Source: a virus
Strand: one strand, 5' to 3'
Length of the DNA: 35,661 nt
IMG/VR virus record: IMGVR_UViG_3300044695_003607
Location: 1-35,661 of that record
Made by a program: the position numbers and the translations under genes. Below the pieces are notes generated by a model, which was given only the letters and a program-made list of their open reading frames with translations, made no database searches and had not been told where the DNA came from. Shown piece by piece: positions 3,456 through 31,935 of this stretch (position 1 is its first letter; the number at the start of each line of letters is the position of its first letter).

Positions 3456-4013
3456 TTATACTAGGGGTTGTGGAGTATCTTTTGATATACCCCGCTTTAT
3501 TCCCCAAAAATATAGATCACGAGTAGGACGATAGTACTCAAAATAAACACCATAAAAACCAAGTTTATCAACCAACGGTCTGAAATGACCCTCTGTAAGG
3601 TTCCTATAATAATCATCAGTAAACGGTGAATCAGAGTTTGTTGTTCTAGAAGTACCATGCTCAGGTCTACCAGTAGAAGCACAAGTAAAAGTTATCAAAC
3701 CACCTTTCTTGGTTAACCTATGCATGTTCTCAAAGGTCTCAGCCCACTGAGGATTATGTTCAAAACATTCAGCACTAATAGCCACATCAAAAGACTCATC
3801 TGGGGCATCATACTCCTCACCCCTACAAACCACATCCACATCTTTACCTTCACCAAGGTCTATACCAACATAGTTGTTGGGGTTATCAAACAAGACACGA
3901 ACTGTGCCATTGATATTTAATGAACCCATTTCTACCACAGACGTGTTAACAAAATGATTGGGGAATAATGTTTTTACTTCTTTAAAAAACCTAAACTGTG
4001 AACCGTGGGCCAT
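3456..4013 (-). CDS. class I SAM-dependent methyltransferase
   Basis: 185 residues. Motif I-like VVEMGSLNINGTVR (about 26-39), acidic strand-2 end YVGIDLGEGKDVD (about 48-60), and SFDVAISAECFEH (about 73-85) are typical of the Methyltransf_11 class. The substrate is unknown. It is the last gene of a glycosyltransferase-methyltransferase-methyltransferase operon transcribed from 5358, so a role in modifying a glycan or surface molecule is plausible. Its ATG overlaps the previous stop (TAATG), with AAGGA upstream. Confidence 0.85.
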   Translation of the reverse strand: MAHGSQFRFFKEVKTLFPNHFVNTSVVEMGSLNINGTVRVLFDNPNNYVGIDLGEGKDVDVVCRGEEYDAPDESFDVAISAECFEHNPQWAETFENMHRLTKKGGLITFTCASTGRPEHGTSRTTNSDSPFTDDYYRNLTEGHFRPLVDKLGFYGVYFEYYRPTRDLYFWGIKRGISKDTPQPLV

Positions 4014-4636
4014 TACTTATGTTCCTTACCCTTTTCATGTATATATACTCTTTGCTTAAAACCATTGATTTTCATGTCAGGCATATATCTTAGTCTATAG
4101 TTAAAGGGATGCTTAGATAGGTCTAGGGCAGTACAGTCATGTCCAGCCTGTATATTTATGTTGACTTCATCATCTTCAGATAATATGTTGTACCATTTCC
4201 TAGTATTAAATAGGTTTGAAATTATGGCATATTTACTGTTGCTTGCTAAGATTTTGTCTACAACTATCTCTATATCTTTTAAAGGCATATGTTGTAAAAC
4301 ATCTCTAACTAAGATTAAATCAGCATTTGGAAGGTCCATAGATACAATATCATCCTCAATAAATTTAATGTTTTCTTTTTCGTATACCTTAATCTTGTCT
4401 ACTATAAAACTACTAACATCTACTCCAGTATATTGAACACCATCTAAATCAAATTCTTGTGCTATTCTCCAGTCACCACAACCAAGGTCTAAGACTGATT
4501 TAACATTATTATTTTTAATAAAACTATTTACTAAGCCAATCCATTTGCCAGCATATATTGGGTCAGAACCAGGACCGCTACCTATACCCCAAAGGTTATT
4601 CTTGTAGACATTGTCAAAGACTTCTTTATTGTTCAC
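4013..4636 (-). CDS. class I SAM-dependent methyltransferase
   Basis: 207 residues from the GTG at 4636, which has AAGG six bases upstream and overlaps the preceding stop by 11 bases. An ATG at 4684 would add 16 basic residues but lacks a ribosome site. VLDLGCGDWRIA is motif I, YTGVDVSSFIVDKI the SAM-ribose strand, and LILVRDVLQHMPL motif IV with the post-motif His common in small-molecule methyltransferases. Substrate unknown. It is coupled to the glycosyltransferase upstream. Confidence 0.85.
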   Translation of the reverse strand: MNNKEVFDNVYKNNLWGIGSGPGSDPIYAGKWIGLVNSFIKNNNVKSVLDLGCGDWRIAQEFDLDGVQYTGVDVSSFIVDKIKVYEKENIKFIEDDIVSMDLPNADLILVRDVLQHMPLKDIEIVVDKILASNSKYAIISNLFNTRKWYNILSEDDEVNINIQAGHDCTALDLSKHPFNYRLRYMPDMKINGFKQRVYIHEKGKEHK

Positions 4637-5351
4637 TATTTTCCTTTTTTTGATTTTTGCTATACATTTTTTTAGAAGAGCCATTATGTAGATTTAATGC
4701 TATAAGCATTTGGTTTAATGGTGTATCTTCTATCATTATACCTTTATTATTTCTCTCAAACCTTGCAGACCACTTCTCTATAAAATATTTTCTATCTGCT
4801 ATTGTTAACTGTTTTAAATATTGGCTTTTATTCGTCTCTACCACTCCAGACATATGGTCTACTGTTGCTGGAACATATACAGCCTTTCCCAAACCTATTG
4901 CTTGAAGCAACAAATCATCGTCTCCAAAGTACCATCTATATGTTTCATCTGTCCTTAATCCAGAAGATAAATCAAGCACCCAACAGTATCCCGCTACCCT
5001 AGTAGCACCATTGCCAGTATGTGGATATGGATAACCTAATACTGCACCTTCTTGTTTCATACCCTTAACTATTCTATTAATAGGATCATCTTTTAGTATA
5101 AGGTCATCATTTAATACCGCGATATATTCTCCACCATTTGCCCTGGCTATATCTATGCCTGTGTTCCACCATCTTTGGATATTGGGTGGGTCTAAGTCCC
5201 ATACGTTGTGCACTCCTTCTATTGGAAATGACTCAACAGTGTGAACTATAACAATTTGATTAAGAGGTATTTGGCTGTATTTTATTATGTCTGATAGGTA
5301 TTCTCTTCTTGTTCCAGTAGGAATTGTTAGCCAAACCTTTAAATCAGTCAT
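4626..5351 (-). CDS. GT2-like (GT-A fold) glycosyltransferase
   Basis: 241 residues. N-terminal KVWLTIPTGTRREYL, the NDD metal motif in YIAVLNDDLILKDDP (about residues 77-90), and FGDDDLLLQAIGLGK near 141-155 match family-2-type nucleotide-sugar transferases. The sugar and acceptor are unknown. Its mRNA is predicted to be leaderless: TATAAT 5358-5363 then six bases then ATG. It heads an operon with two methyltransferases, as in O-methylated glycan pathways. Confidence 0.85.
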   Translation of the reverse strand: MTDLKVWLTIPTGTRREYLSDIIKYSQIPLNQIVIVHTVESFPIEGVHNVWDLDPPNIQRWWNTGIDIARANGGEYIAVLNDDLILKDDPINRIVKGMKQEGAVLGYPYPHTGNGATRVAGYCWVLDLSSGLRTDETYRWYFGDDDLLLQAIGLGKAVYVPATVDHMSGVVETNKSQYLKQLTIADRKYFIEKWSARFERNNKGIMIEDTPLNQMLIALNLHNGSSKKMYSKNQKKENSEQ

Positions 5352-7364: not shown

Positions 7365-7578
7365 GCCAAACATGACTCCTGAAGAAATACAAGATTATTT
7401 GCGTCAAAACAGGGTAACCAAAGATGTGGCAGATGAAGATTTTGCATCTTATATTAAAAGATATGTAAAAAATAATGATGAGTTGTTGCAAAAAATAGGA
7501 TCTGATTTTGATGAAAATGGAACACCATATTGGCTAAAAGTAAAGAAAGATCAAATTAAAGGTAGAGATGATGTATAA
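7348..7578 (+). CDS. hypothetical protein
   Basis: 76 residues, MIAWHKPNMTPEEIQDYLRQ, helical, charged. GAGG about 9 bases before the ATG. It ends in a TAATG overlap with the oxygenase gene. No family is recognised. Confidence 0.7.
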   Translation: MIAWHKPNMTPEEIQDYLRQNRVTKDVADEDFASYIKRYVKNNDELLQKIGSDFDENGTPYWLKVKKDQIKGRDDV

Positions 7579-8195
7579 TGACAAATAGTTTTGTTGATGT
7601 TTTTGGAAGTGGCATAGATAAAATTAAAACTATCAATAACTTTCTTGATCCATACTTGCTTGAAGCATTTAATAACTTTTTAAAAGATATGGCTAAAGAA
7701 AATAAAGACAAAGGTATGCATTTAAAAGATGGTGAAGATTTTGTTTTGCCTGAAGAACTTAGATACGCCATGTATCAATACAATACAAAAGTTATTGAGG
7801 TTGCTGAGGAAGCATACGGTATGAAATTTACTGATGGACCCGCTTCAGATCCACTTGGATTTGTAATTCATAGGATTGGATCTTGTTCAGATCCACATAC
7901 AGATGTTTTAGAGGCTGGTCTAGAGGCACAGAAGTCAGGTGATGAACAGTTAGTTGGATGGCGTGATGCTTGGGATGGATATCTGGCATGCAACATATAT
8001 ATAAACGATAACTACTCTGGAGGACAAGTATATTTTCCAGAAATACCATATGAGTTTAAGCCAGTATCAAATACACTTGTTATGTGGGCAGGTAATAAAA
8101 ATTTTATACATGGGGTAAAAGATCCAATAGATGCGGATAGATTCACTCTAACTAGGTGGATTAAGTTTAAAGATTTTAATAAATACACTATATAA
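7578..8195 (+). CDS. 2OG-Fe(II) oxygenase (prolyl-4-hydroxylase type)
   Basis: 205 residues. The Fe site H107-x-D109 (DPHTDV) and distal H178, with R188 ten residues later for 2OG, are all present. GYLACNIYINDNYSGGQVYF is the strand block typical of P4Hc-like phage oxygenases. Substrate unknown; family members hydroxylate proteins, nucleobases or small molecules. The C-terminal half is nearly the same as that of the gene at 11178, so the two are recent paralogues in opposite orientation. Confidence 0.9.
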   Translation: MTNSFVDVFGSGIDKIKTINNFLDPYLLEAFNNFLKDMAKENKDKGMHLKDGEDFVLPEELRYAMYQYNTKVIEVAEEAYGMKFTDGPASDPLGFVIHRIGSCSDPHTDVLEAGLEAQKSGDEQLVGWRDAWDGYLACNIYINDNYSGGQVYFPEIPYEFKPVSNTLVMWAGNKNFIHGVKDPIDADRFTLTRWIKFKDFNKYTI

Positions 8196-8208: not shown

Positions 8209-8931
8209 TTATCTATAATTTTTATTAGACCTAAAACTTTTTTTATAAGAACCAGTTATCTTTTTAAACAAACCTTCATTACGAATACTCATTTCTTCTT
8301 CAGAAACCTCTGTTAATTCTGAAGTCCAATCTTCTCTTTTAAAAGGTATTACTTGCATTATTGGTGTTCCTGCACTTATCAAACCATTAAAATTCTTTTT
8401 AATAATAAATGGATTATTAATATCCGTTACTAGGGTGTCCGTATCAACAATACCAGTTAAACTTTTAAAAGGTAAACTGTTGTATCCAATTGGATGAACA
8501 AACAAACAGGAGTATCCTGGAGGAGTTTTAATAATCCAATTAGAGTTCCACTTATATACTTGTTTTGTATACTCTTCTGGTATATCGTATCCATTAAACT
8601 GTTCAGGTGTCCATTTTGATACTGGCACTGTTGCTGAAGTAAAGAATGCTTCCTGTATTCCGTTAATATGTTCAAACTTAATATCACAATGTAACTTAAT
8701 TATATAGCCAGCAGATATACTATCTAAAACTGGCATACATTTTTTAACACCTACATTTGGTACTCCATGACTGTTGGGGGCATACTTCATTAGATGTTGC
8801 ATGTTAAGATTTTGATCATTAATAAATGGATCTAATGATTTCCACCATTCAGGTATATTTTTAGATGCTGGCTCTGGGTGATCGTAAACCTTATTAAATT
8901 TATTTTTTGACTCAAACATTATTTTTGGCAT
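8209..8931 (-). CDS. PPGYS-family phage protein of unknown function (paralogue 1 of 4)
   Basis: 240 residues. Conserved blocks: N-terminal EPASKNIPEWWKSL, KKCMPVLDSISAGYIIKL, TPPGYSCLFVHP, LPFKSLTGIVDTDTL, and ISAGTPIMQVIPFKREDW. The pattern predicts a beta-rich, possibly cupin-like or jelly-roll fold; I think this may be the family called DUF6065 but cannot verify it. GAAAGG five bases before the ATG and an extended -10 at 8951 give a short leader. Confidence 0.75.
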   Translation of the reverse strand: MPKIMFESKNKFNKVYDHPEPASKNIPEWWKSLDPFINDQNLNMQHLMKYAPNSHGVPNVGVKKCMPVLDSISAGYIIKLHCDIKFEHINGIQEAFFTSATVPVSKWTPEQFNGYDIPEEYTKQVYKWNSNWIIKTPPGYSCLFVHPIGYNSLPFKSLTGIVDTDTLVTDINNPFIIKKNFNGLISAGTPIMQVIPFKREDWTSELTEVSEEEMSIRNEGLFKKITGSYKKSFRSNKNYR

Positions 8932-10474: not shown

Positions 10475-11188
10475 ATGTCTGGCATGTTAATAGTAGGATC
10501 AATGCACCTTGGGCACCCTGAAGATATGAGTTACAAGATGGTTGAAGCCATAAAAGAAAGTGATGTTATATACACTGACTACATGCCAGATAATTTATAC
10601 TATGCTTTAGAGTTTTTTGGAATGTTGCCAGAAAGTTATGATATAAGAATATTAAAAAGTACTAACACTATGTTTGCAGATGAGTATCAAGTTAAAGAAG
10701 TGGTTGATCTTATTAAAAATGGTGAAACAGTTTTGCTTGTTGCTGGAGAAGGACAAGTTGGTATTGCAGATCCAGGAAATCAATTTATTCAGGCTTGCAT
10801 AGAAGAAGATTTAAAATACACAATTTACCCTGGACCAAGTTCTCACATCACTGCTTTTGTGGCTAGTGGTATAACTAATGGAGATTTTTATATATCATGT
10901 AACATGGAATATCCAGAAAAAACAATTGAATATTTTAAAGATCAGGATACGCCTTTAGTAATACCAATTTGGCAGCACAGACTTGACGAAATAATAGAAC
11001 TATTAGATACTAAATTTAAATTTACAAATAATAAAAATAAAAAAGTAACTTTGTGTTGCGACATGACTGCAAATGAAGAGTTATTTATAACTGATTGGGT
11101 AGATAAGATAGCAAAAAATGAAAAACTTAAAGAAATAAGACCATACGCAAAAATTATGTTAGTCGTTAGTGATTTTATTAAGCAATAG
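10475..11188 (+). CDS. second RsmI-like tetrapyrrole-fold methyltransferase
   Basis: 237 residues. Motifs: GMLIVGSMHLGHPEDMSYKM in place of TPIGN, VIYTDYMPDN, LLVAGEGQVGIADPGNQFI and IYPGPSSHITAFVASGI. The PGPS and DPG motifs are kept and the rest is diverged from the copy at 5977; it lacks the zinc N-terminus. Substrate unknown. AAAGGAATT precedes the ATG. It overlaps the convergent oxygenase gene by 11 bases. Confidence 0.75.
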   Translation: MSGMLIVGSMHLGHPEDMSYKMVEAIKESDVIYTDYMPDNLYYALEFFGMLPESYDIRILKSTNTMFADEYQVKEVVDLIKNGETVLLVAGEGQVGIADPGNQFIQACIEEDLKYTIYPGPSSHITAFVASGITNGDFYISCNMEYPEKTIEYFKDQDTPLVIPIWQHRLDEIIELLDTKFKFTNNKNKKVTLCCDMTANEELFITDWVDKIAKNEKLKEIRPYAKIMLVVSDFIKQ

Positions 11189-11792
11189 AATTATATTTAT
11201 CAAAATCTTTAAATTTTATAGATCTATAAACGTTGTATCTATTTCCGTCTATTGGATCTTTAACACCATGAATAAAGTTTTTATTTCCAGCCCACATAAC
11301 TAAAGAGTTTGCTTTTGGTTTAAACTCATAATTTCTTTCTGGAAAGTAAACCTGTCCTCCAGAGTAATCATCATTAATATAAATATTACAAGAAAGATAT
11401 CCATCCCAAGCATTTTTCCAATCAAACAACTCTTCCTCTTTAGGTTTTTGTCTATCTAAACCTTCAATAATATCAGTATGCACAGGAGTTATTGCTCCAG
11501 GTGTAGCGATTGTTGCTGCAAGCATGTGTACGTTATCATCAACAAATTCCATACCATACAATTCTGTTGCAGTCTCAATTATTTTTTTATTATATTTATT
11601 TTGTATTTCAATAATTTCTGAAGGGATAATCTTATCTATTTCTTCTTGAATATGCTGTCCTTCTTGTGGCTCTGATGCTGATACTGAATCTAAAAATTTT
11701 AACATTTTGTCATAGTCTTCAATATCCATAAAATTTTCTTTAGTTTTTATTAAACTAACGTCATTGCCTAGCACGTCTGCAAACGTGTTCAT
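11178..11792 (-). CDS. 2OG-Fe(II) oxygenase (P4H type), paralogue of 7578
   Basis: 204 residues with H105-x-D107 (VHTDII), H175 and R185. The block GYLSCNIYINDDYSGGQVYF and the end NFIHGVKDPIDGNRY are almost the same as in the 7578 gene, and DNA in this part looks about 80% alike by eye. The N-terminal third has diverged, which suggests a changed substrate. It overlaps the next oxygenase gene upstream by 4 bases. Confidence 0.9.
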   Translation of the reverse strand: MNTFADVLGNDVSLIKTKENFMDIEDYDKMLKFLDSVSASEPQEGQHIQEEIDKIIPSEIIEIQNKYNKKIIETATELYGMEFVDDNVHMLAATIATPGAITPVHTDIIEGLDRQKPKEEELFDWKNAWDGYLSCNIYINDDYSGGQVYFPERNYEFKPKANSLVMWAGNKNFIHGVKDPIDGNRYNVYRSIKFKDFDKYNSIA

Positions 11793-12505
11793 TTTGTGTG
11801 ATAATCCTTATTGAAGTCTTTCATATACTGAAGATTTGCTTGATAAGGAAAAGGAATCTTTTTTAATCTTGTATCTAATTCTTTTTGTGTAATGTTAGAA
11901 AAGAAAGTAACAATTGTATACCTTGGATTACCTGGACCAATATCATGTATCTTATGCTCATATATGTATGATGCAGGAAATATAAATAACTGATTTGCTT
12001 TTGGCTTGATCTTAACTTTAAAATTAATAAACTCTAACTCTCCGCCTTCATAATCATCGTTTGGATAATATACCATTGCAACAGTTCTTGGCGTTCCGTA
12101 TGAATCATCTGGGTGCATACCAAAATAATCTCCTTCAGTATACTTACTTATTCTCCAATACTCTCTGCTTTGTGGATCTAGGTCATAGTGCCACAAATAT
12201 GAGTCTACAATTTCTTCAAAAATTTCACATAATTCTAAATCTTGATCTGGCTCTTTAAATGTTATCCAAGTACTAACACCTTTTTTACCAACTTCTTTTG
12301 GAATATCTTTTCCATCTGAATCATAAATATAGTCTTCTCTAACAAACTTTCCATCATTATCTAATTTTTTAATATAGTTAAAACCATCTAGCCAAACATT
12401 ATCGTATACGTGTATTCCTGGTGCTGGTTGTTCAAACTTAAAATTATTGCCTTTACGACTTTGCGTAATATTGAGTTTAGCATTGGCTAATTTAATAGGA
12501 TCCAA
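11789..12505 (-). CDS. 2OG-Fe(II) oxygenase (P4H type)
   Basis: 238 residues from a TTG at 12505 with GAAAGG eight bases upstream; no ATG is available nearby. Fe ligands H131-x-D133 (MHPDDSYGTPR) and H184, with R195 as 2OG anchor; the H-to-R spacing is 11 rather than the 10 seen in the others. VYYPNDDYEGGELEFINF is the conserved strand block. It heads a two-oxygenase operon. Confidence 0.88.
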   Translation of the reverse strand: MDPIKLANAKLNITQSRKGNNFKFEQPAPGIHVYDNVWLDGFNYIKKLDNDGKFVREDYIYDSDGKDIPKEVGKKGVSTWITFKEPDQDLELCEIFEEIVDSYLWHYDLDPQSREYWRISKYTEGDYFGMHPDDSYGTPRTVAMVYYPNDDYEGGELEFINFKVKIKPKANQLFIFPASYIYEHKIHDIGPGNPRYTIVTFFSNITQKELDTRLKKIPFPYQANLQYMKDFNKDYHTK

Positions 12506-12530: not shown

Positions 12531-12539
12531 ATTATACCA
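12531..12539 (-). promoter_or_regulatory. extended -10 promoter
   Basis: Minus-strand TGGTATAAT, overlapping the last base pairs of the upstream methyltransferase gene. Predicted start about 12524, about 19 bases before the TTG start of the oxygenase at 12505. Confidence 0.6.
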
Positions 12540-13134
12540 TGACCCTAGATATATATATATCTGAGTAGTTACAATAGCCAAGAGATAAGGCTACTACCTT
12601 CCATTGCCTATTGTTATTTAAAAATTGATTGACTGCTTCAACACATGTGTACTCTTCTTGTTCAAACCATCCCCAAAACGTATAATCATTAATTCCAATA
12701 ACTCCACCGTCTGCTAATAATTTAGAAGCCTGTTCTAAATAAAAATATACTGAATCATAATCGTGTTCAGCATCTATATAGATATAACTATATTTATCGT
12801 TTAATGTAAGTATGGTTTCTTTAATATTACCCTTAATTGTTTTTATATTTTTTTCTTTTAATAAATCTTTTACATAATCTTCATGATTTTCTGCTGTCCA
12901 TCTTTCATATCTAGCACATGGCTCATTAAAGAAATCCATTAAGTCTGATCTTTCAAAATTTTTATTATCTAATAACCACTTAGCATAGTCTCCGCCACCT
13001 ACACCTAATTCTAAATAATTTCCTGAATCTGGAATTATTGGAAGAACGTCAAACCTGTCTGCAAAAATTTTTGCGTTATTTAATAGTTCTTGTGGAATAT
13101 GGACAAACCTTGTATTTTCTTCTCTATGCATCAT
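12532..13134 (-). CDS. class I SAM methyltransferase (Methyltransf_24-like)
   Basis: 200 residues. YLELGVGGGDYAKWLL (about 40-55) is motif I, YSYIYIDAEHDYDSV (about 115-129) motif IV with the D-x-x-H pattern of O-methyltransferases acting on sugars or macrocins, and DGGVIGINDYTFWGW follows. Substrate unknown. It lies alone between two promoters. TATAAT 13140-13145 ends five bases before the ATG, so the mRNA is probably leaderless. Confidence 0.85.
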   Translation of the reverse strand: MMHREENTRFVHIPQELLNNAKIFADRFDVLPIIPDSGNYLELGVGGGDYAKWLLDNKNFERSDLMDFFNEPCARYERWTAENHEDYVKDLLKEKNIKTIKGNIKETILTLNDKYSYIYIDAEHDYDSVYFYLEQASKLLADGGVIGINDYTFWGWFEQEEYTCVEAVNQFLNNNRQWKVVALSLGYCNYSDIYISRVMV

Positions 13135-13651: not shown

Positions 13652-14587
13652 CTAGAGGGACCTGAGCATGTCTGTAAACTGCTCTTTTAATATTTTAACT
13701 ATCTCATACCCATCTGTTATTTTTGGTAAATTAATTCTATCAAACTTGAGATTATATGATTCAGCCATCTGTTTAAATATTTCTGTTAAATGAGATTCTG
13801 TGTCTGGATTTATTTCAACAACAACCGTGCCCTCTTTAGCAAAAATAAGATTGGTAAATCCAGCACCACTTGGACCTATAATTTTTTTTGCATTTCCAAA
13901 AATTTGCATCTGATCAAAAAAAGATATATCGTTTAAATCAAGCACCACATAACCAATATCTTTAAAATATTGTTCAAGGACATCTACATTTAATATTTCT
14001 CTATTAGGGTTTATAAAATCTTTAACAGTTTTTCTTGTTATGTATATATTATCATATCTACTCTCATCTTTTATAAAATTAGCAAAATGGTTTTTTAATA
14101 TTTTTAATATTTCTTTATATTGATCTGAGTTATCTCTTAGATATGCTTTACTGGTTATATCATATACATTGTTAAATAATATATTACATTCATTTAAATT
14201 AAATAAATACTTACTGGTATCGATGCCTATGTAGGAAAAAGCATCACTAATTCTATTGTTAGTTGGCATCTTAAATTCATAGTCATCAAATTCTCTAAAC
14301 ATGTATAGTTTTAAATCTGGAACAAATTGCTTTATATAAAGATATATGCCTATTTCATCAAACATCATGTGAAAATAATTTTTCGTAAAGGTTGATATAT
14401 ATACTGGATCTGATACTACATTAATATCAGTATTGTTGTTTACATAATTTATATGAACATTTGATATTTTTTGAATGTTTAGCCCTATACTAGTATTCTT
14501 AAAATTTAACTCAATTGGACTTATTGATGTTTCACAATTTTGAACATTGTCCTTAAACCATTCAGATACATTTATTTTCCAAGACAT
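13652..14587 (-). CDS. GT61 (DUF563)-like glycosyltransferase
   Basis: 311 residues from the ATG at 14587, placed six bases after TATAAT 14594-14599; an in-frame ATG at 14611 lies upstream of that box. NYFHMMFDEIG (about 70-80), NIYITRK (about 180-186) and GPSGAGFTNLIFAKEGTVVV (238-257) match GT61 transferases, which add xylose, arabinose or GlcNAc in other organisms. The donor and acceptor here are unknown. It converges on hsp20 with a 22-base gap. Confidence 0.8.
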   Translation of the reverse strand: MSWKINVSEWFKDNVQNCETSISPIELNFKNTSIGLNIQKISNVHINYVNNNTDINVVSDPVYISTFTKNYFHMMFDEIGIYLYIKQFVPDLKLYMFREFDDYEFKMPTNNRISDAFSYIGIDTSKYLFNLNECNILFNNVYDITSKAYLRDNSDQYKEILKILKNHFANFIKDESRYDNIYITRKTVKDFINPNREILNVDVLEQYFKDIGYVVLDLNDISFFDQMQIFGNAKKIIGPSGAGFTNLIFAKEGTVVVEINPDTESHLTEIFKQMAESYNLKFDRINLPKITDGYEIVKILKEQFTDMLRSL

Positions 14588-14593
14588 ATTTAT

Positions 14594-14633
14594 ATTATAC
14601 AGTATTGACATAATCTTGCTATACTGCTATACT
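14594..14633. promoter_or_regulatory. divergent pair of leaderless promoters
   Basis: Minus strand: TATAAT 14594-14599, six bases, ATG 14587. Plus strand: TTGACA 14605-14610, 17-base spacer, TGCTATACT with -10 at 14628-14633, six bases, ATG 14640. Both genes start exactly one promoter-to-start spacing away, and the whole intergenic region is 52 bases. The plus -35 lies within the minus promoter's upstream contact region. Confidence 0.75.
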
Positions 14634-14849: not shown

Positions 14850-15337
14850 TGGCTAAACAGTGTGGTACATGTACAAAATGTTGTGACGGAACGCTATATG
14901 GAGATGTAAATGGTCACATAATGGGAAATGGCAAGCCATGTATATTCTTAGATGTAGTTAATAAAAAATGTGGTGCATATGAAAAAAGACCAACAGATCC
15001 ATGCAAAACATATAAGTGTATGTGGCTTAAGTATGAAGATGTTCCACTGTGGTTAAAGCCAGAAAACTCTCCAGTAATGGTCAGTGCGTTGAGTTATCAA
15101 GAAAATGAGTTTTTAATTTTAAATTGTTTTGGTAAAGACTACCCAATAATGTATTTAAATTATGTAAAAAACTATTGTACAAAAAATAATATTAACTTGA
15201 TGTACGAGATACCTGGAATGAACAATATGAAATTTATTGGCAATATAAAGGCTTGGAACGAAATAATATTTAACTCACCAATATTAGGTCATAACTTTAT
15301 TCAGTTTACACATGGACCAATAGAGCAATTAATATAA
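14849..15337 (+). CDS. YkgJ-like Cys-cluster (Fe/Zn-binding) protein
   Basis: 162 residues from GTG 14849. CGTCTKCC at 5-12 followed by KPCIFLD, KKCGAYEKRPTDPCKTYKC is the CxxCxxCC..C..C..RPxxC..Y.C arrangement of the YkgJ/UPF0153 metal-binding family, whose members are thought to bind zinc or an Fe-S cluster. The C-terminal half is not conserved with anything I recognise. Function unknown; it converges on an oxygenase gene with a 9-base overlap. Confidence 0.75.
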   Translation: MAKQCGTCTKCCDGTLYGDVNGHIMGNGKPCIFLDVVNKKCGAYEKRPTDPCKTYKCMWLKYEDVPLWLKPENSPVMVSALSYQENEFLILNCFGKDYPIMYLNYVKNYCTKNNINLMYEIPGMNNMKFIGNIKAWNEIIFNSPILGHNFIQFTHGPIEQLI

Positions 15338-22157: not shown

Positions 22158-22167
22158 TGTTAACTTT

Positions 22168-23509: not shown

Positions 23510-23510
23510 T

Positions 23511-23963: not shown

Positions 23964-23965
23964 TA

Positions 23966-24208: not shown

Positions 24209-24215
24209 TAACACA

Positions 24216-24244
24216 ATTATACCTTTGTTTAGTAGTTATACCAA
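24216..24244 (-). promoter_or_regulatory. promoter of the DUF7455-like gene
   Basis: Minus-strand TTGGTA at 24239-24244, 17-base spacer, TATAAT at 24216-24221, then seven bases to the ATG at 24208. Confidence 0.65.
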
Positions 24245-24277
24245 TTTTATCATATACCGTGAATTTTGTCCAGTATA

Positions 24278-24687: not shown

Positions 24688-24719
24688 ATATCTCCTTAAT
24701 ATATTATATCACAAAAATG

Positions 24720-25664
24720 CTATATTGACAGTGTTTTGTTTATTTGCCAATACTTTTCTATCATATTTATTTCTTTATAGAAATCTACAATTGTTCTTGG
24801 CAAACCTAATAAAGTAAAATATTTATTTTCACCCAATAACATTAATTTTTTAACTTCTTTTGTCATTTCATCTTCGTCAAATACCCATATTCTTGTCCAA
24901 TGATCTGGATTATTCCTATCTGTACCAACAAATTTCCACCATCTTTCATCGTATGGAAATGAGTACTTGATATCGTTACCAGCATAATGAACTATTGCAT
25001 TATTGTACGGAGCAACAACATCATATCCTTGACAATATACTGCAATAGACTGCTCTGGTTCTTCAAATGGAAATCTATGGTACGAAGGAAAATTTATTGC
25101 CTTAATATCTGAAGATTTTGCAAATATAAAATTACAAGAAATATAATAATTTTTAAAATATTTTTCATTAACTTTATCCTTATTTGGTACAAACTTAAGT
25201 TCAACAACTTCTCCGTGTATATCTAGTTGATCAAAGGTTCCTTCTAAGATCCAGTCTGTCTTCCAATTATGCTTACCCTGAATAGATGCTGTAGCCTGCC
25301 TAGAGATTATTCTCTTCTCATTATTCTTAGTTAACTCTTCAATGTCATCTATCAAACATTCATCCCAATTAAGTTCAAAATCTGCATGAGCATCAATGCC
25401 CAAAAAATAGGATTCGTCCTCAATTAGACCCCTTATGGCCTCTCTAATGCCCACTATGCCTGGCAGCCCATCTGCAACATCGCTATCTCTAACAATTTTT
25501 ACGTTATTAAACATAGATAAATCTGGCTCTTGTTTATAGTTAAGCCCAAGTCCAAATACAATATTTTCTGGATAGTATGCTGTATCTAATATGTGGTTCA
25601 TGGTATCTACCAAATGGGTATCTTCCCATGCTGGAATTGATACAAATATTTTTTTATTTTTCAT
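24720..25664 (-). CDS. GlcNAc-transferase-like glycosyltransferase
   Basis: 314 residues from ATG 25664 with AAGGAG upstream; the longer frame to 25733 is rejected. KIFVSIPAWEDTHLVDTMNH, ENIVFGLGLNYK, YFLGIDAHADFELNWDE (about 85-101, D-x-H instead of DxD) and FPSYHRFPFEEPEQSIAVYC match PF11397-type enzymes, such as Skp1 GlcNAc-transferase, which glycosylate hydroxyproline. That link to prolyl hydroxylation is notable next to P4H-type oxygenases. Confidence 0.85.
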   Translation of the reverse strand: MKNKKIFVSIPAWEDTHLVDTMNHILDTAYYPENIVFGLGLNYKQEPDLSMFNNVKIVRDSDVADGLPGIVGIREAIRGLIEDESYFLGIDAHADFELNWDECLIDDIEELTKNNEKRIISRQATASIQGKHNWKTDWILEGTFDQLDIHGEVVELKFVPNKDKVNEKYFKNYYISCNFIFAKSSDIKAINFPSYHRFPFEEPEQSIAVYCQGYDVVAPYNNAIVHYAGNDIKYSFPYDERWWKFVGTDRNNPDHWTRIWVFDEDEMTKEVKKLMLLGENKYFTLLGLPRTIVDFYKEINMIEKYWQINKTLSI

Positions 25665-26526
25665 TTTTCTCCTTATATTTTTTATAGAATTGTTCTGCCC
25701 AGTATTTATGAAAGACTGTGCCATGATGTCCATCTCGTTTTTCCATAGCGATAGAGTTTTTATTTAAAGCAATATAATCTTCATAAGCACGTTCCTCAAC
25801 TATGGAGGTGTCTACAAAATTATCTGAATGCAGATTAAAAAGTTCTAAATCATTAATAAACTCATAATTCCATGTGCTCCAAAAAAAATCTGTTTTAGTT
25901 TTGCTGAGTAGGCTTTCAAAAATTTTAATACTTAAATAGTTATGAATTAAAACCGTATTATAATCGGACTCCGTATACTTTCCTAAAGTTGGCTGTTCTG
26001 TATTTTGATCAAAAGCCCCTACTCTGTAAAAACCACTAGACAAATTATAATCATCTGCATGCATATATGCAGATTGCCTTGGTACGTTAGGTAACATAAA
26101 AAATATTGCATCTGGTAGGCCAAACTCTTTTATGTATTCTGATACGACATTTACAATTTCATCTACCCCTCCGCCAGGAATTCCTATTGAAAAAAAACCA
26201 GAACATGTATCATCTTTATTGATGCTATCATATAACATTTTGCTCCAGCAATCTTCTATAACAGAACCCTCTCCCCAAGTTTCTGAACATCCAGCAAACA
26301 ATATGTGATTTTTATCAACGTGATCTTTTTTAAATTCATCACATCTCCAACCATAACTGTTTGTTTTTAAATAATATTCTATTCTTTCATTAGTTATGTA
26401 ATGAGATATGGAATCTATTCCATCAAAATTTTTCTCTCTATAGTGTGTTAGAGTTGAAAATGGATATTCTTTATTATAGACTTCTGGCCTAACATCCACT
26501 GTTTTGTATTTCCATTTACGAGACAT
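25654..26526 (-). CDS. SGNH/GDSL-like hydrolase (paralogue 1 of 4)
   Basis: 290 residues. Block I is ILFAGCSETWGEG (S81 nucleophile), followed by FFSIGIPGGGVDEIV (oxyanion Gly), FGLPDAIFFMLPN and, near the end, DGHHGTVFHK with the D-x-H catalytic pair. SGNH proteins act as acyl-ester hydrolases or acyltransferases on glycans. Its end overlaps the glycosyltransferase start by 11 bases. Confidence 0.8.
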   Translation of the reverse strand: MSRKWKYKTVDVRPEVYNKEYPFSTLTHYREKNFDGIDSISHYITNERIEYYLKTNSYGWRCDEFKKDHVDKNHILFAGCSETWGEGSVIEDCWSKMLYDSINKDDTCSGFFSIGIPGGGVDEIVNVVSEYIKEFGLPDAIFFMLPNVPRQSAYMHADDYNLSSGFYRVGAFDQNTEQPTLGKYTESDYNTVLIHNYLSIKIFESLLSKTKTDFFWSTWNYEFINDLELFNLHSDNFVDTSIVEERAYEDYIALNKNSIAMEKRDGHHGTVFHKYWAEQFYKKYKEKNEK

Positions 26527-27959
26527 TATACGATTAAGTCCTTTTTATATACATTCTGCCAATTAATTATATCAGTTTCATCATTTAACAATGGTTGGCC
26601 TTTAATATTTAAACTAGTATTTAATAAAATTGGAACCTTAGATATTTTGTACCATTTAGACAGTAATTCGTATAATCCAGGATGCTGTTCTTTATTTACA
26701 GTCTGAACCCTAGAAGTTCCATCCTTATGAACTACTGAAGGGATAAGGTCTGGCTTTAAACACTTAACGGCATACTGCATATATGGACTTGTAAAACTCA
26801 TATCAAACCATTTACTTGCATGTTCTTCCATAACAACAGGAGCAAACGGTCTAAACAACTCTCTTTTTTTTATTTCATTTACCTTATTTTTAATTTCAGG
26901 ATCTCTTGGATCAGCAAGTATGCTTCTATTTCCTAGTGCTCTTGGTCCATATTCTGCTCTTCCACTTGCTACCGCCGCAATTCCGTTATTCACTATTTCA
27001 TTTAATGCTGCATCGACTGGATAGTTATCTCCTAAATCATATCCAAGAAATGGTGTTTTAAAATCAATGTGCTTTCCGTACAATGCTGCTGCTGCACCCA
27101 GAGAACTTCCAGCATCTCCAGGGTTTGGCATAATCCATATATCATCAAATATATTCCACAACAATGTATTAGCAGAACAATTAAGAGCACACCCACCCAT
27201 AAAAACTAATTTATTTTTTTTAGTTAATCTTTTTGCCATATACATAAAATCTATTAACTTTATTTGATAAACTTCTTGTACTGCTGCGGCAATATCAAAC
27301 CTATCTTGCTCAGTTATTTCTGATCCCCAATCAAAAATTCCTTTATGAAAATTATATTTTTGATACCCAATTGATGGAAAGTATTCTAAAACCTTTTTAA
27401 AATATTTTTGTTTATCTCCATAGGCAGCCATGCCCATCATTATGTACTCTTCTTGGTTTGGCATTAGCCCAATAAGTTGAGTAAACGCAGAATAAAATAA
27501 ACCAAAACTAAAGGGATAATTATCTTTGTACATTAACTTAATGTTATTTCCTTCTCCAGTCCAAATAGTAGAGGTGTTGAATTCACCAATTGAATCAAGA
27601 ACAACTATTGCTGCATCATCAAACTTGCTAGTATAGTACCCTGCTGCTGCATGCGAGTAGTGATGTTTAAAATTAGTTCTTGGTATTGCATTAAGATAAG
27701 TATGTTCAAACCAAGGCTTACCGCCACCAAAACCACCACGAGTTTTAACTCTTAGTTTCTTTAAAAATGGATTTTCATAGTAGGCTATTTGATCTGGAAT
27801 CCCATACTCCAATGCATTATCTATTAAACCCTTGTTGGTAAACCAATCATTTTTAACTTTGCTATATCTTTCAGCGTGACCAGCAAATAAAACTTTATCG
27901 TCTTGTATTAAAGATATAGATGCATCATGTGTAGTTTCATTAATTCCCATTATTAACAT
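26526..27959 (-). CDS. O-carbamoyltransferase (NodU/CmcH/TobZ family)
   Basis: 477 residues; usual members are 500-600. H11 in MGINETTHDASI, HHYSHAAAGYY (99-109) of the Kae1-like domain, MGGCALNCSAN and the GRAEYGPRALGNRSILADPR block (333-352) are canonical, and PILLNTSLNIKGQP closes the YrdC-like fold. It transfers carbamoyl from carbamoyl phosphate, via carbamoyladenylate, to a sugar hydroxyl. AAGGAGG six bases before the ATG is a perfect ribosome site. Confidence 0.93.
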   Translation of the reverse strand: MLIMGINETTHDASISLIQDDKVLFAGHAERYSKVKNDWFTNKGLIDNALEYGIPDQIAYYENPFLKKLRVKTRGGFGGGKPWFEHTYLNAIPRTNFKHHYSHAAAGYYTSKFDDAAIVVLDSIGEFNTSTIWTGEGNNIKLMYKDNYPFSFGLFYSAFTQLIGLMPNQEEYIMMGMAAYGDKQKYFKKVLEYFPSIGYQKYNFHKGIFDWGSEITEQDRFDIAAAVQEVYQIKLIDFMYMAKRLTKKNKLVFMGGCALNCSANTLLWNIFDDIWIMPNPGDAGSSLGAAAALYGKHIDFKTPFLGYDLGDNYPVDAALNEIVNNGIAAVASGRAEYGPRALGNRSILADPRDPEIKNKVNEIKKRELFRPFAPVVMEEHASKWFDMSFTSPYMQYAVKCLKPDLIPSVVHKDGTSRVQTVNKEQHPGLYELLSKWYKISKVPILLNTSLNIKGQPLLNDETDIINWQNVYKKDLIV

Positions 27960-28761
27960 TTTCTACCTCCTTAATTCTGTACATTGCTTCTTTAAACCAT
28001 GCGTAGTGAACTGCTTCGCTAGGGTGTGTCTTATCTGATCCAAATATTGTCATATCTTTATCATTATTTTGTATAAAGTCAAATGTATTTTTTGCAAATC
28101 TTTCTTTATTTATTTGATAATAGGTATTAAAAGAATCTTTCATCATTTGATGCATATACTCTTCAAAATCTGGAATATAGATATCTATAAAATCAGTAAC
28201 TCCTGTAACCAAGTCTGACCAACCAGTTGTAAACAACTTTACGTTATTAGTTTTACACATATCTTCTAATATACTATATAAGTTAAATATAAAAATTTCT
28301 ACCAAGGTTCCATCTAGTCCACGAAATGTATTAAACTTAAACCAGTCTCTTCCATAATTTGGAAAAAGTATAAATATATAATCTGGATATCCATGTTTAG
28401 ATATATACTTGAAAACATTAAGTATTATTTCTATCGTTGATCCACCAGACAATCCAACATTAAAGTATCCACTGCACGGAGTATGCTCATTTATCTGATC
28501 ATATAACTTATATGACCAACTTTTTTTAATATCATTTAACCCGCATCCAACGGTTATAGAGCATCCAGCAAATAAAATATTTGTTTTATCTTTGCTAACT
28601 TCTGTAAAAGAATCGCTAATATATGGGACAAACTCAATTGATTGTTTTGTTAAGTCTGGATTAAGAAATGGACCTATGATATCTTTATTTTTGTGCAACA
28701 AGTATTTAAAGTGCTGAGGTCTTTCTTCTCTATCTTGATTAATTATATCTTCAAATTCCAT
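27940..28761 (-). CDS. SGNH/GDSL-like hydrolase (paralogue 2 of 4)
   Basis: 273 residues. Block I NILFAGCSITVGCGL (S68), FNVGLSGGSTIEI, YPDYIFILFPN and a C-terminal DKTHPSEAVHYAWF with Asp and His. The active-site set is complete. Overlaps the carbamoyltransferase start by 20 bases. Substrate unknown, presumably an O-acyl group on a glycan. Confidence 0.8.
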   Translation of the reverse strand: MEFEDIINQDREERPQHFKYLLHKNKDIIGPFLNPDLTKQSIEFVPYISDSFTEVSKDKTNILFAGCSITVGCGLNDIKKSWSYKLYDQINEHTPCSGYFNVGLSGGSTIEIILNVFKYISKHGYPDYIFILFPNYGRDWFKFNTFRGLDGTLVEIFIFNLYSILEDMCKTNNVKLFTTGWSDLVTGVTDFIDIYIPDFEEYMHQMMKDSFNTYYQINKERFAKNTFDFIQNNDKDMTIFGSDKTHPSEAVHYAWFKEAMYRIKEVENVNNGN

Positions 28762-28812
28762 ATTAATATATAAACTCTCTCTTTTTAAAATGTTTTTTAT
28801 TTTTTCTTAACC

Positions 28813-28833
28813 AAAAATAAAATTTAATTTTAT
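28813..28833 (-). terminator. weak AT-rich hairpin with T tract
   Basis: ATAAAAT 28817-28823 and ATTTTAT 28827-28833 form a seven-pair stem overlapping the stop at 28830-28832; on the minus strand it is followed by five T. This could partly terminate transcription between the SGNH genes. The stem has no G-C pair, so strength is doubtful. Confidence 0.35.
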
Positions 28834-29777
28834 ATATTATTTTTTTCATTTAAATACCTTTCATAGAAATATTTATACCATGCATGATGAAATGCATTTC
28901 CGTGATGTTTATTTTTATCTGGTGCAATAAATAAGTATGGATCGTTTGAATTATTTGTAGCAAACTCATAAACATCTTGTTGAATTTTGTAAATATCCAT
29001 CAACTTAAAGGTTGCGGTGTATCTTTCTAAATATTCAAGTTGTTCAAAAGGATATCTTTCTTTAAAATTACTGTATAGTCCAGTATCTCCAAACTTTCCT
29101 TCAGCAGTTAGTTGATGATTGTATACGTCAACATTAAAGTACTCCTTGTCGGCACCACGCAGCAAACTATCAACAATATTTTTTTTATCATTTAGAACCC
29201 AACTAGTTGACACTAACTTTGTGCCATTGCTTTTGCACAAAAACTCTAAATGCCTATATAGTTCTGTAATGATGGGAGTTAAAGATTTTTCTGGCTCTTT
29301 AAAATAACTGGCGTCTCTTTCAATTTCTGGTAACAGAATAAATATTATTTTTGGAAATCCATAAGACTGAATATATTTATTTATGTTTATTAATATCTCA
29401 AATATACTTCCAGCACATAATCCTAGATTGTAGTAACCATCAATATTGACATCTTTTTTAATTGCTTCATAAAGTCTATATGACCAAGTTTTTTTATACT
29501 CTACGCCAGCACCAAAAGTATTTGAACATCCAGCAAAAAGTATGTGATCTCCATCATGATCTTCTGTAAACTCATCTGAACGAAAGTTGTCTGAATTTAA
29601 AGTGTAGTCTAAATCATATTTTAACCCATCCTCCAACTCTTCATCTAACAATTCTTCAGATAAAAAATTTCTTTTTTTATTTATTATAATGTTAAATTGT
29701 TCTTTTGACATTTCTTTTAATCCATTGCCTATTAAAAAAAGAGAGTTGTTGTGAAAAAAATCATTATTATTGTTCAT
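28830..29777 (-). CDS. SGNH/GDSL-like hydrolase (paralogue 3 of 4)
   Basis: 315 residues from ATG 29777 (MNNNNDFFHNNS), which overlaps the preceding stop; a longer frame to 29858 is rejected. DHILFAGCSNTFGAG (S85), YNLGLCAGSIFEIL, FPKIIFILLPEIE and C-terminal DKNKHHGNAFHHAWYKYFYE. Very similar to the 29767 gene, so a recent tandem copy. Confidence 0.8.
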   Translation of the reverse strand: MNNNNDFFHNNSLFLIGNGLKEMSKEQFNIIINKKRNFLSEELLDEELEDGLKYDLDYTLNSDNFRSDEFTEDHDGDHILFAGCSNTFGAGVEYKKTWSYRLYEAIKKDVNIDGYYNLGLCAGSIFEILININKYIQSYGFPKIIFILLPEIERDASYFKEPEKSLTPIITELYRHLEFLCKSNGTKLVSTSWVLNDKKNIVDSLLRGADKEYFNVDVYNHQLTAEGKFGDTGLYSNFKERYPFEQLEYLERYTATFKLMDIYKIQQDVYEFATNNSNDPYLFIAPDKNKHHGNAFHHAWYKYFYERYLNEKNNI

Positions 29778-30657
29778 CTGTATACCTGCTGTAAAAATAT
29801 TTATACCAGGCGTAGTGGAAACCTTCTCCATGATGTTTTCCAGAATCTGGTGCAACAAGTATATTTTTATTATTTACTAATAAAGAATAATTATATATGT
29901 TTTCTTTAAAATCTTCTTGATATAAAACTTTAAAAGTTGATGAATATTTTTGTAAAGTTGCTAACTCATAATATGGATTTATTTCTTTTAGAAAATCATA
30001 TACTCCACCTTCTGCGTATTTGTTATCTCTAGTCTTATAATCTACATAAGAACTATATTCTTTAGTGTAATATTTTGCCATTTCTTCTTCATCCATATTA
30101 AGCCAACTTGTACTGAATAGTGATGTGTTTGATTTTTTACATAAGTACTCAAACTCATTATACAGTTCAGCAATTATAGTTGTTAATGATATCTCTGGCT
30201 TTACAAAATATCTAATATCTCTTTCTATTTCTGGAAACAGTAAAAATATAACATCTGGCATGGAATATCTTCTTATATATCTCTGAACATTTACTAATGT
30301 TTCAAAGATGCTTGCTCCTGAAGCACCCAGATTAAAATAACCACTTAACTTTTCTTCTTTTTTTATTTCTTCGTATAGTCTATATGCCCAGGTTTTTTCA
30401 TATTCAACTCCTTCTCCAAAAGTATTTGAACATCCAGCAAAAAGTATGTGCTTGTCTTTATGTTTTTTAATAAACTCATCTGATCTAAAATTATCACTAT
30501 TTAAGTTATATGAAATACCAGTTTTTTTAACGTCATCTTTCATTTTGCTGCTTAATGGGTTTACCAAGAAACCTTTATTTCCCTTTATATTAAAGTTTTT
30601 ATTTGCATTTGTAGGCTCATCATCTGAAGATTCAACTTTATACAACTTTTCTTTCAT
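29767..30657 (-). CDS. SGNH/GDSL-like hydrolase (paralogue 4 of 4)
   Basis: 296 residues. KHILFAGCSNTFGEG (S76), FNLGASGASIFETL, MPDVIFLLFPEIERDIRYF and SGKHHGEGFHYAWYKYFYSR. Shares blocks such as NSDNFRSDEF with paralogue 3. Starts in the stop region of the oxygenase gene (ATG 30657), with AGG six bases upstream. Confidence 0.8.
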   Translation of the reverse strand: MKEKLYKVESSDDEPTNANKNFNIKGNKGFLVNPLSSKMKDDVKKTGISYNLNSDNFRSDEFIKKHKDKHILFAGCSNTFGEGVEYEKTWAYRLYEEIKKEEKLSGYFNLGASGASIFETLVNVQRYIRRYSMPDVIFLLFPEIERDIRYFVKPEISLTTIIAELYNEFEYLCKKSNTSLFSTSWLNMDEEEMAKYYTKEYSSYVDYKTRDNKYAEGGVYDFLKEINPYYELATLQKYSSTFKVLYQEDFKENIYNYSLLVNNKNILVAPDSGKHHGEGFHYAWYKYFYSRYTDEQ

Positions 30658-31328
30658 TCTTGACCTGTAGAATTTCTAATCATGTCAGATGGTACATTAT
30701 GAAACCAAGTAGGTACTGCATACCTCGGTCCCTTTAAAACAGAGTCAACTTCGTGAACATATAAAAAGTTAGATGGAAAGAATACAATACTACCTGCCGA
30801 TGGTTTAATGGTTACATTTGATTGCTTAAATGTTATTTCTCCACCAACATAGTCATCATTAAGGTATAGCAGTACAGACAAAACCCTTGTACTAACTCCT
30901 TGGTCTTGATGTGGTGGCAAATATCCAGTCTTATCATATCTTAATAAACTAGTTGCGTGTTCTTTTGCTTTAACATTTTTTTGTGCAAATGGATATAGTT
31001 TGGTTGAATAATGTTTTAATGCTTCATCAATTGATCCATGTATTCTAGAAGATATATTTCTTTGTTCATCTCTAAAGGTATCATCTTCTGATATCTGTTC
31101 CATAGTTGGAATAAATTTTTGCCAACAAAATATTTCTTTGGTTCCAGCACTTTCATTAACCCAAGGAGACCATGGTTGAACAACTGTTTTTTGTTTAACA
31201 TCTTCAGGACTATTCAATAGTCTTTCTTCTAAATCTTCTATATTTCTTATAATCTGATCAGTATTTTTTACAATATTTTTATAATATACTAATCCTAAAT
31301 CTAGTACCTCATGATCTATTAGATTCAC
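30654..31328 (-). CDS. 2OG-Fe(II) oxygenase (P4H type)
   Basis: 224 residues from a GTG at 31328. H140-x-D142 (PPHQDQG), H192 and R202. LYLNDDYVGGEITFKQS is the strand block. Overlaps the SGNH gene by 4 bases and the upstream oxygenase by 20, so oxygenases and hydrolases are made from one transcript. Confidence 0.9.
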   Translation of the reverse strand: MNLIDHEVLDLGLVYYKNIVKNTDQIIRNIEDLEERLLNSPEDVKQKTVVQPWSPWVNESAGTKEIFCWQKFIPTMEQISEDDTFRDEQRNISSRIHGSIDEALKHYSTKLYPFAQKNVKAKEHATSLLRYDKTGYLPPHQDQGVSTRVLSVLLYLNDDYVGGEITFKQSNVTIKPSAGSIVFFPSNFLYVHEVDSVLKGPRYAVPTWFHNVPSDMIRNSTGQE

Positions 31329-31935
31329 GCTCTTCTGCCTCTCGCTCTAATGGATACTCAACGGCTTGCCAAACTGGTTTTTTATTTTCTCCTAAAAAGT
31401 CTGGATCTGCATGTTCTGGAAGAGATGTGTGCATAAACAAAGCAGTATATCTATGCCCTTCAGTTACCTCTGTAATACCATGAATGTATTCAGTACCAGC
31501 ACTTGGAAAAAATACTGCTGAATATTTCTTAGGTTGATAAACAAAGTCTTGATTAGGAAAAAATATCTTACCACCTTGATACTCTGGAGTTTCATTTAGG
31601 TAAATGATTGTGCTAAACTCTATGAATGGTTCAGGACCTTGTGCATCTAGGTGCAACCCACCCCTTGTGCCCTTTACCCAGTGTGATCCAAAACCTTTAA
31701 ACACATATATGGGATTAAGAAAACCATTATAGGATCTATGAACTTCGTTTGATTTATTTCCATATTTAATCATTACGTCCATAACGTTTTTGTTATACGG
31801 TAAAGATGTTCCACCATATCTTTTTCCATAATATTCTGGATATGGATTAACCTCTGATGGGTTGTGCTGTTCCCTTATTAGGGTATCTGCGTCTTCTTTG
31901 GTTATAAAATTGTCTATTACCGAAATTCTATGCAT
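31309..31935 (-). CDS. 2OG-Fe(II) oxygenase (P4H type)
   Basis: 208 residues. H95-x-D97 (GLHLDAQG), H152 and R162. IYLNETPEYQGGKIFFPNQD replaces the usual ND-DY-SGG block. TAGGA about 7 bases before the ATG. It heads the island operon running to 24720 or beyond, after the promoter at 31956. Confidence 0.9.
   Translation of the reverse strand: MHRISVIDNFITKEDADTLIREQHNPSEVNPYPEYYGKRYGGTSLPYNKNVMDVMIKYGNKSNEVHRSYNGFLNPIYVFKGFGSHWVKGTRGGLHLDAQGPEPFIEFSTIIYLNETPEYQGGKIFFPNQDFVYQPKKYSAVFFPSAGTEYIHGITEVTEGHRYTALFMHTSLPEHADPDFLGENKKPVWQAVEYPLEREAEERESNRS

Follow-up and report, generated by a model that had tools for sequence, protein, structure and literature searches.

A conserved oxygenase-glycosyltransferase cassette of tailed phages and its possible role in tail-fibre modification

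The 35.7-kb virus record IMGVR_UViG_3300044695_003607 of IMG/VR (positions 1 to 35,661, the whole stretch analysed here and hereafter called the window) contains nine genes for 2-oxoglutarate (2OG)-Fe(II) oxygenases, two of which close a cassette of six genes on the minus strand. From window position 34995 to 30654, the order of this cassette is U3 (34315..34995), two paralogues of a family here named D6065 (33600..34328 and 32839..33600), a divergent PF11397-like glycosyltransferase, GTq (31965..32849), and the oxygenases 31309..31935 and 30654..31328. An original prediction had proposed that the oxygenases, together with glycosyltransferases, SGNH proteins and a carbamoyltransferase, hydroxylate and then decorate some target of the phage; U3 and the D6065 paralogues, of which the window has two more (8209..8931 and 18593..19315, minus strand), had been missed.

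The other seven oxygenases are located at 7578..8195 and 16668..17303 on the plus strand, and at 11178..11792 (50% identity to 7578-8195), 11789..12505, 15329..15910, 15907..16596 and 17306..17962 on the minus strand. All nine match PF13640, with E-values of 6.7e-5 to 1.4e-16 (7.1e-8 for 31309..31935 and 1.4e-16 for 30654..31328), and also phrog_61; seven exceed the Pfam cut-off of 27 bits, and those at 11178 and 15907 fall slightly under it (24-25 bits). The HxD...H...R residues are intact and in register in all nine, just as had been claimed. A six-frame PF13640 search of the window recovered eight of them, missing 31309, and the site (HxD/E...H...R/K) is intact in 342 of 348 distinct oxygenase domains in which all four site columns were aligned. 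The window oxygenases are predicted to be prolyl-hydroxylase-like, the nearest solved structures to their joint profile being prolyl 3-hydroxylase 1 (P3H1; 6.9e-17), a bacterial prolyl 4-hydroxylase (P4H; 2.6e-9) and PHD2 (2.3e-8), with PKHD hydroxylases also among the first profile matches. LH3 (0.021) was only a marginal match and, among solved structures, no closeness to TET/JBP enzymes was found (TET-like 0.056, versus 6.9e-17 for P3H1). In G006, a protein of 480 residues (L107:13105-14547) combines a 2OG oxygenase (PF13640) with a luciferase-like monooxygenase region that falls below the PF00296 cut-off (0.0014), and a similar protein is encoded in G004 (L123:16616-18043).

Three of the four D6065 paralogues, those scanned with PHROGs, match phrog_7084 (6.7e-47 for 33600..34328 and 1.9e-32 for 18593..19315), and 8209..8931 was assigned by alignment and PF19541 (0.0069). 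PF19541 (DUF6065), to which 32839..33600 is also weakly related, has a cut-off of 26.6 bits that the two paralogues scanned did not reach (20.0 and 16.3 bits). An AlphaFold2 model of 33600..34328 (predicted local distance difference test, pLDDT, 85.7) predicts a dUTPase-type fold for the paralogue modelled, nearly all of the PDB matches listed being dUTPases (best E 6.4e-4). Among the records of the phage collection, 49 have a D6065 relative; their names refer to Halorubrum, Haloarcula, halophage and Hardygib1 viruses. In one of these, halovirus HSTV-2, the upstream neighbour of the relative (gene 40, L176:8899-9768) is thymidylate synthetase, which hints at what the family originally did. The fold and this neighbour would fit a hypermodification of nucleobases, in which the oxygenases would hydroxylate a base, D6065 would handle the nucleotide and the transferases would decorate the base. 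We regard this as very improbable, because prolyl hydroxylases match the oxygenases far better than TET-like enzymes do, and because D6065 occurs in several copies per phage, often close to the fibre genes described below. Neither Pfam nor PHROGs gave a match for U3 at 0.01.

Downstream of GTq, the genes from 31935 to 24720 form a run on a single strand; the single overlapping operon originally described is thus right as to strand, but the genes overlap only mostly, with one gap of 68 bases (28761-28830). The run ends in a second PF11397 glycosyltransferase, GTp (24720..25733, minus strand; PF11397 1e-14, 55.3 bits against a cut-off of 21; phrog_24687). GTq itself does not reach the PF11397 cut-off (13.3 bits, E 0.057), and profile-profile comparison of the two families (hhalign 98.7%, 4e-16) suggests that it is a distant relative of GTp. 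The PF11397 family includes the Skp1 hydroxyproline N-acetylglucosamine (GlcNAc)-transferase. Two further candidates on the minus strand are a GT61 glycosyltransferase at 13652..14611 (PF04577 1.2e-16) and a possible, weakly matched GT2-like one at 4626..5351 (PF00535 6.3e-4, below cut-off), so that of the four glycosyltransferases originally counted, two (24720 and 13652) are secure, and the other two fall below the Pfam cut-off.

The same run contains the O-carbamoyltransferase of the original prediction, which is of the NodU/TobZ/NovN/GdmN type (26526..27959, minus strand; PF16861 4.6e-52, PF02543 3.7e-33); it has both the Carbam_trans_N and the Carbam_trans_C domain and matches phrog_1601 over nearly its full length. 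Its closest solved proteins in the PDB are NovN (3.5e-51), GdmN and TobZ; the one bacterial locus found to have a relative, in Flagellimonas, shows 30% identity, and in some related phages a pair of GT61 genes lies downstream of it. Enzymes of the NodU/TobZ type modify sugars or polyketides. Four proteins of the run, all on the minus strand (25654..26526, 27940..28761, 28830..29858 and 29767..30657), share the motif GCSxTxGxG and a conserved C-terminal His. Matches to the Pfam GDSL family are few: only 27940..28761 reaches even E 0.0029 (PF00657), and 4 of 40 family members have E <= 0.01; the Ser and His are invariant in the alignment of these 40 members, in which the block III Asn was not assigned. 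An AlphaFold2 model of 29767..30657 (pLDDT 86.3) gave TesA and GDSL/SGNH esterases or lipases as its best Foldseek matches (best E 2.2e-4). The four are accordingly predicted to be of SGNH type, as had been claimed, from the motif in all of them and, in 29767..30657, also from the modelled fold. The three methyltransferases of the original prediction, which match Pfam methyltransferase families, are found outside the run (3456..4013, PF08241 1.7e-8; 4013..4684, PF13649 1.3e-8; 12532..13134, PF13578 2.6e-11; all minus strand).

Relatives were fetched from IMG/VR for the carbamoyltransferase (80 of 572 matching stretches), GTq (80 of 196) and U3 (80 of 224), and 51 loci were fetched for the fibre gene, all of these sets overlapping one another. 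Open reading frames (ORFs) of 312 sequences were predicted and assigned to families by means of profiles derived from the window and the first loci; near-copies were removed at shared 4-mers above 0.7-0.85 (the threshold depending on the script), and loci with short flanks were also removed. For GTq, 161 members (>230 residues) were thereby reduced to 56 and, with at least five genes on each side, to 47. In all 47 loci, U3 and D6065 are among the six genes upstream of GTq, and at least one of the eight genes downstream of it encodes an oxygenase. The 56 loci mostly have the order of the window, and forms with one oxygenase, or with genes of a group labelled PX in between, also occur. Within eight genes on either side of GTq in the 47 loci, the carbamoyltransferase was recognized in 38, SGNH genes in 31, PX genes in 8 and a fibre gene in 5. 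Many relatives also have, upstream of the cassette, a gene for a protein of 173 residues (L001:627-1148 and relatives) that begins with (M/L)TCIAVV...MAGDRGASD; it has no Pfam match, and its resemblance to HslV/proteasome-type N-terminal nucleophile (Ntn) hydrolases is by eye only.

The fibre gene of the window's phage was found in a longer contig, G001 (91.5 kb), which is identical (100%) to window 16529-35661, the comparison having been made via its part L001, and which, by matching gene coordinates (offset 12518), extends from about window position 12519 to about 68 kb past the window end. G001 encodes a portal, a prohead protease, an Mtd_N tail-fibre protein and a class II ribonucleotide reductase, as well as a fibre gene with fibronectin-III (Fn3) domains and an (FGFSPFxV)n repeat, in the order fibre, PX, PX, ribonucleotide reductase, oxygenase. 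Based on its family match (minor-tail phrog_6977 2.6e-6; fn3 5.7e-9) and its tail-gene neighbourhood (Mtd_N, PF18454, 1e-11, next to it), this gene is predicted to encode a tail-fibre or minor tail protein. The general architecture of such fibres consists of Fn3 domains, a low-complexity repeat of the type (FFxPP)n or FFPP, (FGFSPFxV)n, (FGFTP)n or (GAF)n, and often a Hint-like tail, the last recognized by eye; Pfam scans of three fibres gave no match for it. A second gene of G001 shares the (FGFSPFxV)n repeat and the C-terminal part of the G001 fibre. Neither the fibre nor GTq had a tblastn match at 1e-5 among 50,697 named phage records, and therefore no cultured example was found.

A collagen-like (PF01391) tail protein with 16 Gly-X-Y triplets is also encoded in the window's phage (G001:90143-90871, L085:18143-18871); a collagen-like gene is one of the things for which the original prediction had proposed to look elsewhere in the genome. 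Genes with at least ten Gly-X-Y triplets exist in four of seven long contigs (G001, G002, G007 and G008) without evident relation to oxygenase number, and collagen is therefore a second candidate only and was rejected as the general substrate. Next to an FFPP-repeat fibre gene of G002, a sulfotransferase-like protein (L091:3242-3973; weak Pfam match, 0.0044) is encoded. Two fibres with GAF-type repeats (L119:6113-7723 and L112:5819-7372) have a Hint/intein-like C-terminal region by eye, and have a D6065 neighbour and no adjacent oxygenase within the sequence piece.

Of the fibres, 43 are non-redundant and are followed by at least five genes; in 29 of them, the first of these genes belongs to the oxygenase/PX/D6065/U3/GTq set, and in 38 at least one of the first five does so. 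For comparison, seven long contigs have 799 genes of at least 90 residues, of which 107 (13%) belong to this set, a background that includes the fibre-adjacent genes themselves. The query behind most of these fibre loci was the fibre, not an oxygenase, and the few obtained via GTq, U3 or long contigs are biased to cassette neighbours. The set counts the PX proteins, which are not established as oxygenases: they have an HxH...H...R-like pattern by eye, but none of the 27 tested matches a 2OG family, no solved relative was found, and they were not counted as oxygenases below. Another family, OXb (G001 33442-36757), has an HxD...HWR pattern of which all residues except W are invariant in 19 aligned members; it has no solved relative at E 0.1, and was counted with the oxygenases in the correlation and the fibre-tree analysis that follow.

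The number of Pro-Pro (PP) pairs in the fibre repeat was associated with how many of the next ten genes are of the oxygenase family (Spearman 0.80, n = 35; fibre genes of at least 240 residues, of which 55 had at least eight downstream genes before near-copies were removed). All 17 fibres with at least 14 PP pairs have 3-7 oxygenases nearby, and 16 of them have 5-7; the fibre with three (L168:1-2424) is truncated by its contig end and lies a few genes ahead of another PP fibre. The 18 fibres without PP have 0-2; one overlapping ORF without a repeat (L238:2852-3640) is included in the 35. The type of oxygenase differs as well, since, of the 107 oxygenases near PP fibres, 63 have Lys at the position where 2OG presumably binds, versus 12 of 241 in all other contexts. 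Collagen-type P4H enzymes carry Lys at this position, and PHD-type enzymes Arg. All nine window oxygenases are of the Arg type, and the operons of PP fibres therefore use a partly different oxygenase subtype.

Oxygenase numbers by themselves could also be explained by unrelated auxiliary enzymes in hot-spots, where oxygenases with many substrates expand freely and the vicinity of the fibre is simply a variable region. Each of 11 long contigs has 1-9 PF13640 matches, most of the window oxygenases lie apart from the cassette, and cyanophage S-SCSM1 has 24 2OG oxygenase genes, for which an effect on host metabolism was proposed (PMC9602691). However, a cassette whose content is conserved in every one of the 47 loci, a near-fixed gene order at PP fibres, and an enzyme number and type associated with repeat composition would not be expected from free expansion, and we give this explanation a small chance.

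The placement of the cassette was traced on a tree of the 56 GTq rows, of which 42 are linked to the carbamoyltransferase, six to a fibre and eight to neither. Fibre-linked rows fall in two deep lineages (three changes; as low in 0 of 500 shuffles), whereas 40 of the 42 carbamoyltransferase rows, with six of the rows linked to neither, form one supported group of 46 (95/94); the remaining two carbamoyltransferase rows are sister to one fibre lineage. A further long contig, G011, which is outside the 47 loci, has a fibre gene a few genes from the cassette, and was labelled as linked to neither on the tree because its pieces were cut. With a midpoint root only, an origin of the cassette on the fibre side is plausible.

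These placements bear on the remodelling of the host surface, in which the transferases, carbamoyltransferase, SGNH proteins and methyltransferases would alter lipopolysaccharide or capsule, for instance for superinfection exclusion, and the oxygenases would act on the same glycans or lipids. The carbamoyltransferase, whose nearest solved proteins are NovN, GdmN and TobZ, is separated from the fibre gene, the matches of the SGNH model include acetyl-xylan esterases and acyloxyacyl hydrolase, and the window has GT61 and methyltransferase genes. Yet a surface function leaves unexplained both the presence of the U3-D6065-GTq-oxygenase core near fibre genes in two deep lineages and the association with PP repeats, and the oxygenase profile is nearest to prolyl hydroxylases of proteins; we consider it unlikely, though deserving of some weight.

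The neighbours of the carbamoyltransferase-linked cassettes might alternatively suggest the tailoring of a small molecule or of a ribosomally synthesised and post-translationally modified peptide (RiPP), that is, a carbamoylated, hydroxylated and glycosylated compound released via a secreted protease. A subtilase-like gene is present near 18 of the 38 carbamoyltransferase-linked cassettes; that of the window's phage (G001:23200-24102, L082:5200-6102), just upstream of the cassette, has a PTP-rich linker, what looks like a signal peptide, and no Pfam match, and the terms secreted and subtilase-like were assigned by eye. A tryptophan halogenase (L242:5144-6748; PF04820, 1.8e-102) is encoded directly upstream of one U3-D6065-GTq-oxygenase cassette, and another is encoded in G008 (L105:9910-11457). 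Crocagin is a peptide natural product, and its CgnD ranks 14-15 among the matches of the SGNH model; the luciferase-like/2OG fusion of G006 would also suit such a pathway. On the other hand, no precursor peptide was recognized, although no systematic search was made, no non-ribosomal peptide synthetase, polyketide synthase or RiPP family was found in the subset of window proteins scanned, and the cassette is also placed near fibre genes without the carbamoyltransferase, so that tailoring of this kind has a slim chance.

In short, a P4H-like pair of oxygenases keeps company with a PF11397-like transferase and with two proteins dedicated to this group, and the whole is found either close to a fibre gene or in a carbamoyltransferase/SGNH operon. 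This is most simply explained by a cassette for the modification of a virion-fibre protein, to which one branch has added decoration with carbamoyl and acyl groups. It is quite possible, and we propose it tentatively, that the U3-D6065-D6065-GTq-oxygenase-oxygenase cassette modifies the phage's own tail-fibre protein and that carbamoyl and acyl steps were added in the lineage of the window. The prolyl-hydroxylase-like oxygenases would first hydroxylate side chains in the low-complexity repeats of the fibre, most likely of Pro and perhaps of other residues, and one or more PF11397-like transferases would then add a sugar to the new hydroxyl, D6065 and U3 perhaps serving as dedicated parts. In the lineage of the window's phage, where the cassette is joined to the O-carbamoyltransferase, several SGNH-type enzymes and the second PF11397 transferase, these additional enzymes would decorate the sugar further, the SGNH-type ones being likely O-acyl esterases or acyltransferases. 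The hydroxylation and glycosylation of the original prediction are thus upheld in part: the relationship to P3H1, P4H and PHD2, the constant company of GTq and an oxygenase, and the near-fibre cassettes of two deep lineages agree with them. The fibre gene of the window's phage, the oxygenase/PX/D6065/U3/GTq genes that follow most fibres, and the link of PP repeats with oxygenase number and type also speak for the fibre as the target.

Several observations weigh against this proposal. One of the weightiest is that, within eight genes of GTq, the carbamoyltransferase and the fibre (38 and 5 of the 47 loci, with neither in 4) never occur together; the window cassette adjoins the carbamoyltransferase and not a fibre, and seven of the nine window oxygenases are outside the cassette. 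The subtilase-like gene, near none of the five fibre-linked cassettes, is another possible target or partner, and in the carbamoyltransferase branch the target could equally have changed to the host surface, a small molecule or this secreted protein. Lys at the 2OG position is found in none of the nine window oxygenases and in none of the 119 cassette oxygenases away from fibres (which are included in the 241 above), and the fibre of the window's phage has about one Pro per repeat unit of eight residues and no PP. In one relative, the (GAF)n fibre has no Pro in its repeat, and a D6065 neighbour is kept without an oxygenase. The fibres behind the PP correlation are also kin: the best tree of fibre N-terminal parts, in which bootstrap values are unsettled and two rows are very long, needs six changes of the PP label, but its well-supported branches force only one, and the association of PP with oxygenases may have a single origin. 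In addition, the phrog_6977 match of the fibre sits on its Fn3 part, HSTV-2, the sole haloviral genome examined, has no fibre gene adjoining its D6065 relative, and, for the families profiled, 125 sequences with 3117 proteins yielded no PLOD-like fusion of an oxygenase and a glycosyltransferase.

Other genes of the window include two of the tetrapyrrole-methylase family (PF00590; 5965-6879 and 10475-11188), an Hsp20 (13216-13629), an S-adenosylmethionine decarboxylase (20668-21051) and a nuclease of the GmrSD_C type (22168-22824) that appears to carry a signal peptide.

Hydroxylation followed by glycosylation is known from the Skp1 system, which is cytosolic and found in protists, and in which a prolyl hydroxylase is followed by the GlcNAc-transferase Gnt1, the founder of PF11397. 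The proposed phage pathway would similarly consist of a P4H-like hydroxylase and then a PF11397-type transferase, although GTq appears to be a divergent relative. The PLOD/LH3 lysyl hydroxylase-glycosyltransferases and a mimivirus enzyme follow the same logic of hydroxylation and then glycosylation; here the likeness extends to the weak LH3 profile match, but no fused protein was found. The carbamoyltransferase resembles NodU, TobZ and NovN in its two domains, but would serve a phage pathway.

Among viruses, the chlorella virus PBCV-1 encodes a prolyl 4-hydroxylase, and hydroxyproline was reported in viral proteins (Eriksson 1999, as cited in PMC9301287); in that article, the use of P4H by viruses is called cryptic, and viral P4H is mentioned together with collagen in tail fibres. 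PBCV-1 shares with the present phage a virus-encoded prolyl hydroxylase, but it is an algal virus, whereas here a whole series of these enzymes occurs in a tailed phage, along with a conserved cassette that contains a PF11397-like transferase and that has, in some lineages, a fibre gene nearby. Cyanophage S-SCSM1 likewise combines many 2OG oxygenases with a relative of the carbamoyltransferase, but its oxygenases are read as host-metabolism genes, no link to a fibre appears in the excerpt of PMC9602691, and their functions, in its words, "have not been specifically investigated". Among the papers listed by searches of the open-licence PMC literature, we found none that ties phage oxygenases to fibre modification. 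Hydroxylation of viral proteins was thus already known, and the setting and the gene partnership are new here.

Many phages carry large and unexplained sets of 2OG oxygenases, for which PMC9602691 offers the host-metabolism reading. The coupling of the cassette to a fibre gene in some lineages gives phage oxygenases a concrete and testable substrate. A wider view, possible but rather doubtful, is that tailed phages of bacteria build extensin- or collagen-like glycoprotein fibres: their hydroxylases would modify Pro or other residues in the aromatic/Pro-rich repeats of an Fn3 tail fibre, PF11397-type transferases would add sugars to the hydroxyls, and carbamoyl and acyl groups would vary these sugars, with D6065 and U3 as dedicated parts. 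The chemistry of the fibre, in addition to its sequence, would then set adhesion or protect the virion. If the proposed modification is true, phages would apply eukaryote-like hydroxylation, and then glycosylation, to their virion fibres. This would matter for host recognition, for fibre stability, and for studies of fibres that were expressed without their modifying enzymes.

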